From NCBI GenBank assembly GCA_019359435.1, contig JAHHHI010000083.1:1-64000 (forward strand): a stretch of DNA of 64,000 bases, given 5' to 3'. A program made the position numbers and the translations under genes. The stretch's first letter is position 1; every line of letters begins with the position of its first letter. The notes below the pieces were generated by a model, which was not told where the DNA came from, did no database searches, and saw nothing but the letters and a program-made list of their open reading frames with translations. Source of the stretch: Kaiparowitsia implicata GSE-PSE-MK54-09C (lineage in GTDB: Bacteria > Cyanobacteriota > Cyanobacteriia > Elainellales > Elainellaceae). This document shows positions 9,528-12,600 of the stretch, in pieces.

Positions 9528-11633
9528 ATGACTGCTTTTGACCCGAATCAAGCCTCCCCCCAGGGGGGGGTGCTCCCGGCCCAAGAAGGCGTGATGCTGC
9601 AACGGGGCGGGGAAGAGTTGGCGCTGACCCGCGTGGGCGATCGCTTTACGGTGCGGTTGGTGGATGTGACCACGGCTGAATCCCTGGCGACCGATATAGG
9701 GGCCGTGGCGACCCTGTTCATCCCTACAGTGCGGTTGATGCAGATTCAGGTAGAGCCTGAGCAGCTAGAAGCGGCGATCGCCGCCGTGCGCGACTCCAGT
9801 CAGGTGGTGTTTGCCAGCCATGTCTATTCCCTAGCCAACAGTCCTCAAACTCTGGTGTATCTAACCGATGAGTTGACGGTGCAGTTTGTGAATGATTTGA
9901 ATATGGAGACGGTGCGGGCGATCGCCACCTCCCTAGGGTTGCAGGGGCTCAAGCCCGTCGCGGGGATTCCCCAAACCTTTGTGTTTCAGGTGACAACGCA
10001 GGCTACCGCCAACCCGATTAAGCTGGCGAACCAACTGATGCGGATGCCAGACGTGCTAGTGGCAGAGCCAAACGTGGCGATTGAGTCGCAGGTGCTCTAT
10101 CGGCCTCGTGATCCTGAGTATGGGCGGCAGTGGTATCTCAACAACACGGGCGGTGTTCAGATCGTGCCCGAGGCACATATTTCAGTAGAGCCCGCCTGGG
10201 ATGTCACGCGGGGAGTGCGCTCGGTGGTGGTCGCCATCACTGACGATGGGTTTGATCTCAACCATCCCGACCTGCAGGGCACGGGCAAGGTGGTGGCTCC
10301 CCGCGATCTTAAGGGCAAAGATGACTTGCCGCTGCCAGAGCAGGCTCACGAAAACCACGGCACGGCCTGCGCTGGCGTGGCGATCGCCGAAGAAAATAAT
10401 GTCGGCATTGTGGGCGTGGCGCCGGGCTGTAGCGTTATGCCGCTGCGAACCACTGGCTTTTTGGATGACCAAGCGATTGAAGATCTATTTAGCTGGGCGA
10501 TCGACAAGGGCGCATCGGTGATCTCGTGTAGCTGGGGGGCTAGCGCCATCTACTTTTCGCTGTCTCTGCGGCAGCGGGCGGTGATCACCCGCGCGGCCAC
10601 CCAGGGGCGGAATGGGCGCGGCTGTGTGGTGCTGTTTGCCGCAGGCAACGCCAACCGACCCATCAGTGGCACCATCAACGAGCGCGGCTGGGATCGCAAC
10701 GTGCTGAGCGGCAGCACGAACTGGCTCAACGGCTATGCGGTGCATCCCGATGTGATTGCCGTGTCGGCTAGCACCAGTCTGGGCAAAAAATCGGCCTATA
10801 GCAATTGGGGTGAGGCGATTTCGGTCTGCGCCCCCAGCAACAACGCCCAGCCGGGGGTGTGGCTGCCCCAAACCGGCTATGTGTTCACCGCGCCCCAAAT
10901 TCAAGGGACGTTATCCGGCCAAGGGGTCGTAACGAGCGATCGCCTAGAGCCCGAAGGCTACAATCCTAGAGGCGGCTACACCAACAACTTTGGCGGCACG
11001 TCAAGCGCCTGCCCCGTGGTGGCAGGGGTTGCCGGGCTAATGCTCTCGGTCAACCCATTTCTGACCGCCCGCGACGTGAAGCTCATTCTGCAAGAAACCG
11101 CTGACAAGATTGTGGATACTGAGGCCGATCCCCAATTGGGGTTTCGCTATGGCACCTACAGCGCCAGCGGACACTCTCGCTGGTTTGGCTATGGCAAAGT
11201 CAATGCGGCTAAGGCCGTGCAAGAGGCCCGCCGCCGCCTGCCAGCGGCCCCCACGCCTAGCCGCTGGGTGACGCAGCAAAACACGAATCCAGTGACGATT
11301 CCCGACTTTAATCTAGGCGGTGCCACCAGCCTGATTCAGGTGCAAGAAACAGCCCCCCTGCGCGATCTGCGCCTCACGCTGGATGTTGAGCATGAGTACT
11401 TGGGTGATCTAGAGATTTTGCTGCTGCCGCTGTCGGCGGGGGCGGTGTTATTGCAAAGCCGCACCTTAGGTCGCGCCACTCGTTTGCAGACTACGTTTAC
11501 CCTGCAAACGAGCCCTATGCTGCGACAGTTGCTAAACCAGTCGCCCCGGGGAACGTGGCAACTGCGGCTAATTGACTATGCGCCGACTCACGTGGGTCGG
11601 TTACTCAGTTGGCAGTTGAGTTTGGGGTTCTAA
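9528..11633 (+). CDS. S8 (subtilisin/kexin-like) serine protease with C-terminal P-domain
   Basis: A 701-residue peptidase. The N-terminal 200 residues look like a prodomain and linker. The S8 domain follows with catalytic Asp in VVVAITDDGFDLNHPDL (about 237), His in HENHGTACAGVA (about 274), and Ser in NNFGGTSSACPVVAGVAGLM (about 491). The last 110 residues (LRDLRLTLDVEHEYLGDLEI to GRLLSWQLSLGF) form a proprotein-convertase P-domain (jelly-roll), as in kexin-type enzymes. No signal peptide is visible at the ATG-derived N-terminus, so it may act in the cytoplasm or leave by another route. Substrate unknown. Confidence 0.92.
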   Translation: MTAFDPNQASPQGGVLPAQEGVMLQRGGEELALTRVGDRFTVRLVDVTTAESLATDIGAVATLFIPTVRLMQIQVEPEQLEAAIAAVRDSSQVVFASHVYSLANSPQTLVYLTDELTVQFVNDLNMETVRAIATSLGLQGLKPVAGIPQTFVFQVTTQATANPIKLANQLMRMPDVLVAEPNVAIESQVLYRPRDPEYGRQWYLNNTGGVQIVPEAHISVEPAWDVTRGVRSVVVAITDDGFDLNHPDLQGTGKVVAPRDLKGKDDLPLPEQAHENHGTACAGVAIAEENNVGIVGVAPGCSVMPLRTTGFLDDQAIEDLFSWAIDKGASVISCSWGASAIYFSLSLRQRAVITRAATQGRNGRGCVVLFAAGNANRPISGTINERGWDRNVLSGSTNWLNGYAVHPDVIAVSASTSLGKKSAYSNWGEAISVCAPSNNAQPGVWLPQTGYVFTAPQIQGTLSGQGVVTSDRLEPEGYNPRGGYTNNFGGTSSACPVVAGVAGLMLSVNPFLTARDVKLILQETADKIVDTEADPQLGFRYGTYSASGHSRWFGYGKVNAAKAVQEARRRLPAAPTPSRWVTQQNTNPVTIPDFNLGGATSLIQVQETAPLRDLRLTLDVEHEYLGDLEILLLPLSAGAVLLQSRTLGRATRLQTTFTLQTSPMLRQLLNQSPRGTWQLRLIDYAPTHVGRLLSWQLSLGF

Positions 11634-11910
11634 CGCCGAAGTTGATTGAATGCCACTGCAAGAAGCGAGTTCAAGAGGCCATTGAGAAGGCGGCTCAAAA
11701 GTATTGCGGGATGTCCCTAAAGTAGGGCCTGTTCTATAACGAATCACAACAGCCAAGGGGTGGAGTGGAGTGTGGTGAAACGGGCGATCGCCCCTTGAAT
11801 AGGGCGTTTCAGATTTTCTTTAAGGAATTTTTCGAACCGTGATCTTTCCCTGGCAAGATGCAAAATTTTAAAAGACTACGCTAATCTTGAATAAACTGTC
11901 GAGTTTACAT

Positions 11911-11914
11911 GGAG
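11911..11914 (+). promoter_or_regulatory. Shine-Dalgarno GGAG that selects an ATC start for infC
   Basis: GGAG at 11911-11914 sits 8 bases before ATC at 11923 in the infC frame. No ATG or GTG is available in frame, and the upstream TTG at 11887 lacks a ribosome binding site. Confidence 0.55.
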
Positions 11915-11922
11915 ACTGTCTT

Positions 11923-12417
11923 ATCGCTACAGCACAGAAACAACTGGTTAATCGTCAAATTCGCTCCCCACAGGTGTTGCTGATCGACCACGAAGGCAAC
12001 AACATTGGGCTGATTGATACCCGTGATGCTTTGCAGCGTGCTACCGATGCCGGATTAGATTTGGTCGTGGTCTCGGAGAGCAAAGATGCCCCCGTCGCCA
12101 AAATCCTAGATTTTGGGAAATACCAATATCAGCAGAAAAAGCGCCAGCGTCAAAACACCAGCAAGCCCTCTATGAAAGAGGTAAAGCTGCGTCCTAATGT
12201 GGGTGAGTCAGACTACAACATCCGCATTAGTCGGGCAGTGAAATGGCTGAGTGACGGTGATTCTGTGAAGTTCCAGATCCGCCTGCGGGGTCGTGAGCAC
12301 CAGCACCGCGATCGCGCGGCTGAGTTGCTCGACCGCATCGTGGCAGACCTCGGAGAAGCGGGTAAGGTGCAGTCGTTAGATAAGCGATCGCTGATTGTGC
12401 AACTTTCCCCGGCATAA
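11923..12417 (+). CDS. infC: Translation initiation factor IF-3 (divergent form; probable ATC start)
   Basis: IF-3 binds the 30S subunit and proofreads start-codon choice. Both domains are visible: N-domain QLVNRQIRSPQVLLIDHEG to KILDFGKYQYQQKKRQRQ, then C-domain KEVKLRPNVGESDYNIRISRA and FQIRLRGREHQHRDRA, ending QLSPA. Known infC genes use rare start codons (AUU, AUC, AUA) through which IF-3 represses its own synthesis. Here ATC at 11923 is the only candidate with a well-spaced GGAG, giving about 164 residues. The sequence differs from the common cyanobacterial form (DLPQINERIR..., ending in a Lys-rich tail), so it may be a second IF-3 paralogue. Start inferred. Confidence 0.85.
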   Translation: MATAQKQLVNRQIRSPQVLLIDHEGNNIGLIDTRDALQRATDAGLDLVVVSESKDAPVAKILDFGKYQYQQKKRQRQNTSKPSMKEVKLRPNVGESDYNIRISRAVKWLSDGDSVKFQIRLRGREHQHRDRAAELLDRIVADLGEAGKVQSLDKRSLIVQLSPA

Positions 12418-12461
12418 TCTGGTGAACTTAGCCCCGATTGATCAGATGTCGGGACATGCTT

Positions 12462-12511
12462 AAGCGGTAGAGTGGCTGTGTGCAATGCAAACGGCAACCC
12501 TACCGCTTTTT
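12462..12511 (+). terminator. Probable terminator after infC
   Basis: AAGCGGTAG at 12462-12470 pairs with CTACCGCTT at 12500-12508, followed by a short T-run (TTTTTGG). The loop is about 29 bases, longer than ideal, so strength is uncertain. Confidence 0.6.
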
Positions 12512-12600
12512 GGTTTATGGAGCCGGTTTAACTAAGACAGGGGCCTTGCTGATGATATGCGCAGAATCAATTCATACCCCTGCAGATTTAGCGTGGAGCG

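Follow-up and report, generated by a model that had tools for sequence, protein, structure and literature searches.

The window, a stretch of 64,000 nucleotides of Kaiparowitsia implicata DNA, contains an infC gene whose product, judged from its sequence, belongs to a second, divergent family of IF3 ("B") and not to the canonical one of cyanobacteria ("A"). Comparison with related genes makes it nearly certain that translation of this gene starts at the AUC codon at position 11923. It is likely that IF3-B is translated from this codon behind a Shine-Dalgarno (SD) sequence with IF3 start-codon feedback as in E. coli infC. Bacterial IF3 is commonly regarded as universal and encoded by one gene copy. 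Here, a second family was found alongside A in many cyanobacteria and on plasmids, and it apparently replaces A in some lineages. The features of the gene and its surroundings are listed in Table 1.

Table 1. Features of the B-type infC region in the window
Feature	Positions	Strand	Remark
In-frame TAA stop	11869..11871	+	upstream bound of the infC reading frame
TTG	11887..11889	+	sole ATG/GTG/TTG upstream alternative; rejected as start
Shine-Dalgarno GGAG	11911..11914	+	8 nt ahead of ATC
Predicted ATC initiation codon	11923..11925	+	aligned codon is ATC, ATT or ATA across the B family
B-family infC, IF3 of 164 aa	11923..12417	+	TAA stop included; TIGR00168, both Pfam domains, clade B
IF3 N-terminal domain (PF05198)	11947..12153	+	91.5 bits vs cut-off 26.9
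IF3 C-terminal domain (PF00707)	12172..12411	+	73.8 bits vs cut-off 34.8
Probable intrinsic terminator	12462..12511	+	long G+C-rich hairpin, then five T

A divergent second IF3 family in cyanobacteria

An earlier note on this DNA had identified the gene as infC. With regard to the protein this identification held: the frame 11887-12417 (+) matched TIGR00168 with 156.5 bits (cut-off 60), which places it in the IF-3 family, and both Pfam domains of IF3 were recovered. The gene is, however, not the usual cyanobacterial infC but a second type. The predicted structure of the window protein (pLDDT 80.9; pTM 0.48, with two domains) had IF3 structures as its best matches, the first with an E value of 2e-16, in agreement with an IF3 fold.

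When 60 related genomes were searched, two groups of matches were obtained. One comprised close relatives with 67-81% identity, found in the window's own genome and in 18 others; the other was the canonical gene, with 40-46% identity. A tree was calculated from 93 B, 23 A and 7 outside sequences. All B rows fell into one clade (100/100) and all A rows into another (99/90), with a bootstrap that was not fully settled, and the window gene was placed outside the A clade. The branch leading to B is long (1.27) in this tree with only 7 outgroup rows and the same unsettled bootstrap, and the family may have arisen by an old duplication or by transfer, possibly from another phylum.

Both families are two-domain IF3 proteins, and canonical A differs from B in its ATG/GTG/TTG start, mostly without SD, in forming its own clade and in its linker. 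The linker (between E. coli positions 70 and 94) is 24 residues long in E. coli, as it is in 23/23 A proteins, whereas 20-22 residues were counted in 93/93 B proteins, i.e. 2-4 fewer. We further inspected E. coli R25, R66, R99, R112, R116, R131, R133, R147 and R168, which we take to be residues that matter in IF3. Arginine was retained at R99, R131, R133, R147 and R168 in 76 to 93 of the 93 B proteins. R25, R66, R112 and R116 were altered in most B proteins, where L or F stands in place of R25, K in place of R66 and mostly E or Q in place of R116; R112 is altered in most A proteins as well. Several conserved arginines would thus fit 30S binding, anti-association and start-codon proofreading by B. 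Duplicated genes were seen in both families: locus L022 (G011) has a tandem pair of canonical infC with one more divergent copy, and a Coleofasciculus MAG (L075) has two nearby B-type infC on the same strand, whose start codons are ATA and ATC.

The start codon of B-type infC

Between the upstream TAA stop and the N-domain core of the window gene, TTG 11887 is the single ATG, GTG or TTG. The sequence therefore bears out the earlier note, according to which no ATG or GTG lies in frame ahead of the N-domain and GGAG stands 8 nt ahead of ATC 11923. Its further claim that TTG 11887 lacks an SD agrees with the anti-SD duplex energies, which were -6.4 kcal/mol for ATC 11923 versus about -0.2 kcal/mol for TTG 11887. 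An equally good SD at a spacing of 5-8 was found at 154 of 5355 ATH triplets on both strands of the window, and the site taken alone is thus no more than suggestive; the ATC start rises above chance because it is conserved across the B family.

For this comparison, 102 B start sites were collected from the window, the 18 related genomes, 79 usable loci (80 sites, as one locus has a tandem pair; L111 was excluded, its N-terminus being missing) and three Nostoc plasmid genes. The scan of genome contigs covered the best 80 of 103 relatives, so that the most divergent members of B are under-represented. Nine of the 102 sites were exact repeats over 120 bases and were removed, leaving 93 distinct sites. 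The start was then picked automatically as the codon with the best SD among ATG, GTG, TTG, ATC, ATT and ATA, without a bonus for the second residue. ATC (66), ATT (20) or ATA (6) behind an SD was picked at 92 of the 93 distinct sites, with a median SD energy of -6.3. The energies of the family ranged from -3.0 to -12.5 kcal/mol, the weakest being that of L120 (-3.0). The lone TTG was picked at L005, where the family ATC behind GAGG is also in frame; this locus was aligned at TTG in the conservation profile and at ATC when start codons were mapped on the tree. The earlier note had named an ATG at another conserved site in relatives as evidence against ATC, and none was found in the 93 distinct relatives. 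Alignment of upstream regions, as it had proposed, revealed ATC, ATT or ATA conserved at the start position.

In the conservation profile of the B loci, the AT of the start codon reached 1.9-2.0 bits. The most conserved upstream block was GAG at -12 to -10 (~1.5-1.6 bits), and positions before -20 were mostly below 0.3 bits. At position 2, 91 of 93 sites encode A, S, V or T, which is compatible with Met removal, and L113 encodes L. Two features of an autocontrolled infC, an SD at normal spacing and a start outside ATG/GTG/TTG, were therefore found by comparison. On the tree, only 8 changes of the start codon were required (four for ATT, four for ATA), and none involved ATG; so small a count is a weak test of whether ATG itself is avoided ((2/3)^8 = 0.04 if third-base changes are equal). 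The motif TA[TC][CGT]CT[AG]G[TA]A was observed 42-61 nt upstream of the start in 18 of 93 B loci (0.26 expected from mononucleotide shuffling). It may be a promoter or a regulatory site common to these loci, and the window is not among them.

As a control, the same SD scoring was applied to E. coli infC and recovered the known ATT. In seven control infC genes of Alphaproteobacteria, Gammaproteobacteria, Bacillota and Actinomycetota, ATH was the best-paired codon in 7/7 (one weak, -4.7), and 3/7 had no in-frame ATG/GTG/TTG ahead of the core. Canonical A had ATG/GTG/TTG ahead of the core in 23/23 genes examined, with an SD energy of -4 kcal/mol or lower in just 3/23 among the candidates listed (the last four ATG/GTG/TTG within 45 codons). 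Thus, B shows the pattern of these control genes, from which cyanobacterial A deviates.

Plasmids were also found to carry B-type infC, two in Nostoc sp. HK-01 and a conjugative one in Nostoc sp. ATCC 53789 (L144, L145 and L146; six plasmid records were matched by name and three of them examined). Each of the three has the family ATC behind an SD, yet is annotated from TTG, one upstream and two inside the N-domain. We judge these TTG starts to be wrong from the sequences, and misplaced starts of the kind that the earlier note had expected were hence encountered in 3/3 plasmid genes examined. B reveals a class of start sites that are wrongly placed in annotations.

Apparent loss of A and surroundings of B

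The distribution of A and B was analysed in 241 cyanobacterial genomes, for which a completeness of 95% or more was requested. Counts were made by hand from the match numbers per genome and the listed matches of at least 225 bits (78 rows, 69 genomes). B was found in 69 of the 241 genomes, and by match number 45 of these also contain A. A was absent in 24/69 genomes with B versus 1/172 without B, the latter being a 700-contig assembly without any IF3 match. Fifteen of the 24 B-only genomes, which include the window's, have one B and nine have two. When these genomes, Richelia intracellularis HH01 and the filamentous cyanobacterium ESFC-1 were searched with an A query, only B was obtained, with at most 131 bits; in a control genome, A was obtained with 302 bits. 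Culturable strains with B as the sole IF3 found include Nodosilinea nodulosa PCC 7104 and ESFC-1. The proportions (24/69 versus 1/172) argue that B supplies IF3. Since IF3 is called an essential bacterial protein in PMC8266586, the lack of A in B-only genomes also argues that B does the IF3 work there, and we conclude that B very probably supplies IF3 function where A is missing. Twenty-three of the 24 B-only genomes share one family code (f13), and the window's genome has another (f1); the window's genome, Richelia and ESFC-1 suggest further separate losses of A.

In the window's genome, a second IF3 gene was searched for with a B query, the Pfam C-domain and two canonical queries, which gave chance-level matches only (with the A query two, E 0.24 and 0.58). 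In the neighbourhoods of relatives, canonical infC adjoins a divergent comF-like gene in 11/11 (comF read by eye) and lies upstream of a ~1000-residue gene in 7/11. The window gene has neighbours other than the comF-like gene and is hence not at the canonical A locus. The comF-like gene of this genome is located mid-contig (C12) without infC beside it, and the ~1000-residue gene lies inside another contig (C10). An assembly gap at the ancestral A site has no support, as both flanks lie inside contigs and the fetched stretches contained no N and no infC remnant. A canonical copy may still lie in unassembled DNA of this genome. Where relatives have canonical infC, two xanthine-dehydrogenase-like genes (by eye) adjoin the comF-like gene (L135 5990-9759, on C12).

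In the window, infC is situated between protease-like and histidine-kinase-like genes (by eye), the former a large subtilisin-like gene (9528-11633, by eye) upstream on the same strand. No neighbour common to most B loci was found among 92 loci. The largest neighbour cluster comprised 28 of these loci including the window and is response-regulator/histidine-kinase-like (by eye), a large promiscuous family. A small gene with an RNA-recognition motif (Rbp-like, by eye) was observed near B infC in 8/92 loci, e.g. L005, L006, L015, L016, L080 and L081; Rbp-like proteins with this motif are often cold-induced in cyanobacteria.

A sigma-70 best-score scan revealed no consistent promoter in the B upstream regions, and a scan of the window revealed none on the plus strand. 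Around the window infC no Rfam match was obtained up to E 1 and hence no known leader RNA, and the fold of the leader around the start was no better than shuffles (z +0.7), so that structural sequestering of the start is without support. Downstream of the gene, the fold of 12455-12520 reached -27.3 kcal/mol compared to -17.2 for shuffles (sd 2.7). The terminator hairpin was not listed by a simple terminator scan, probably because the scan takes loops of 3-8 only. Given this strong hairpin and the T tract behind it, infC probably ends its own transcription unit. In Nodularia, an infC, which may be A or B, is among the strongest transcription starts according to PMC3610870.

Proposed start-codon feedback, its alternatives and known systems

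IF3 destabilises initiation complexes whose codon mismatches the initiator tRNA, and E. coli infC, which starts with AUU, is under IF3 autocontrol by feedback, for which work of Butler in 1987 is said to be the reference. The start of B was deduced by comparison, and we infer feedback by IF3 as the likeliest mechanism acting on it. The SD would keep the B mRNA bound to the 30S subunit, and sensitivity to IF3 would come from the unusual start codon. IF3 would reject initiation complexes at AUC, AUU or AUA, so that more IF3 would mean less translation of the B mRNA; scarce IF3 would allow initiation on it. Together, AUC/AUU/AUA and SD on an IF3 mRNA would form a sensor of free IF3, and the start codon of B would be one policed by IF3 itself. 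Wherever A is missing, IF3-B would carry out the essential IF3 work. In genomes with both, A, started from ATG/GTG/TTG and thus outside the loop, would also repress B, and B would top up total IF3. Genomes with A only, A and B, or B only offer a natural comparison for how start-codon stringency is set and evolves.

Different starts of the B genes were weighed against ATC/ATT/ATA. That translation begins at TTG 11887 or another upstream ATG/GTG/TTG, the ATC being an internal isoleucine codon, is very improbable. In its favour, TTG 11887 is in frame, one of the Nostoc plasmid genes is annotated in this manner, and in-frame ATG/GTG/TTG occur at 34 of the 93 loci (at least one each), five of which (L005, L051, L056, L095 and L105) have one whose SD reaches -4 kcal/mol or lower. 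Against it, TTG 11887 has no SD and is not conserved, no such codon was found from the upstream stop to the conserved core in 59/93 sites or to the chosen start in 65/93, the SD would fall within the coding region, and conservation 5' of the SD is low. A start at a downstream ATG/GTG/TTG (GTG 11974 in the window) has two deposited Nostoc plasmid annotations in its favour, and the first candidate lies a median of 18 codons past the chosen start; its position, however, varies by locus from 5 to 60 codons, and such a start would lie within the N-domain's first predicted strand and remove N10 and I13, which are invariant in 19 B proteins. The stretch ATTCGCTCCCCACAG ahead of GTG 11974 contains no SD, and we give this start equally little credence. 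The least probable variant, close to negligible, places the start upstream in another frame, from which the gene would be reached by ribosomal frameshift. At 66/93 loci (33 with ATG), an ORF in another frame has an ATG/GTG/TTG within 300 nt and is still open where the B start lies, but 12/93 loci have neither such an ORF nor an in-frame ATG/GTG/TTG, the SD-to-codon spacing is typical of initiation, and the low conservation 5' of the SD speaks against this variant too.

With ATC/ATT/ATA as the start, its role could differ from feedback. The codon might merely keep a minor IF3 at a level that is low and constant, which would agree with the reduced expression from odd start codons in general and with the presence of A in the 45 genomes that have both. 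In S. aureus, AUU and AUA reporters yielded ~10% of AUG in poor medium and one up to 30% in rich medium, as reported in PMC13009471. We regard this role as unlikely: a low level is an improbable goal in the 24 of 69 genomes where B is the sole IF3 found, the codon is preceded by an SD throughout the energy range given above, and the judge of such codons is the product of the B gene itself. It is doubtful, but slightly easier to accept, that IF3-B is functionally distinct through its short linker and changed R25, R66 and R116 contacts and tolerates AUC/AUU/AUA starts. Linker shortening in E. coli IF3 leads to incorrect start-site decoding, as stated with reference to other work in PMC8266586, and with its linker 2-4 residues shorter B may discriminate poorly, which would weaken self-repression. 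If IF3-B were tolerant, lineages without A would be under relaxed start-codon rules, with such starts on more genes, and in lineages with both the A/B ratio, set by the AUC start of B, would tune start-codon stringency.

Feedback on B would place the gene beside known infC systems. E. coli infC is part of an operon with rpmI and rplT. It shares with B an AUU-class start behind a strong SD, whereas the window gene has protease-like and histidine-kinase-like neighbours, a shorter linker and AUC, and many relatives of its genome contain a separate A-type infC. The infC operon of E. coli is named in PMC2837039. For S. aureus infC, PMC13009471 describes an AUA start with a retapamulin ribosome signal and proposes auto-regulation; like B, this gene has an AUH-class start and an extended SD, ribosome-mapped in S. 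aureus, and unlike B it is not described there as a second family. None of the open-licence literature matches listed described a second IF3 in cyanobacteria or AUC/AUU/AUA starts for it. Measured against these matches, the B family, its AUC/AUU/AUA start, the replacement of A, the Nostoc plasmid copies and the shorter linker are new; the start-codon principle itself is already known. We take Myxococcus xanthus dsg to be an IF3 gene with an AUC start, which differs from B in belonging to another phylum. Its IF3 identity and a mutant phenotype are reported in PMC2268962.
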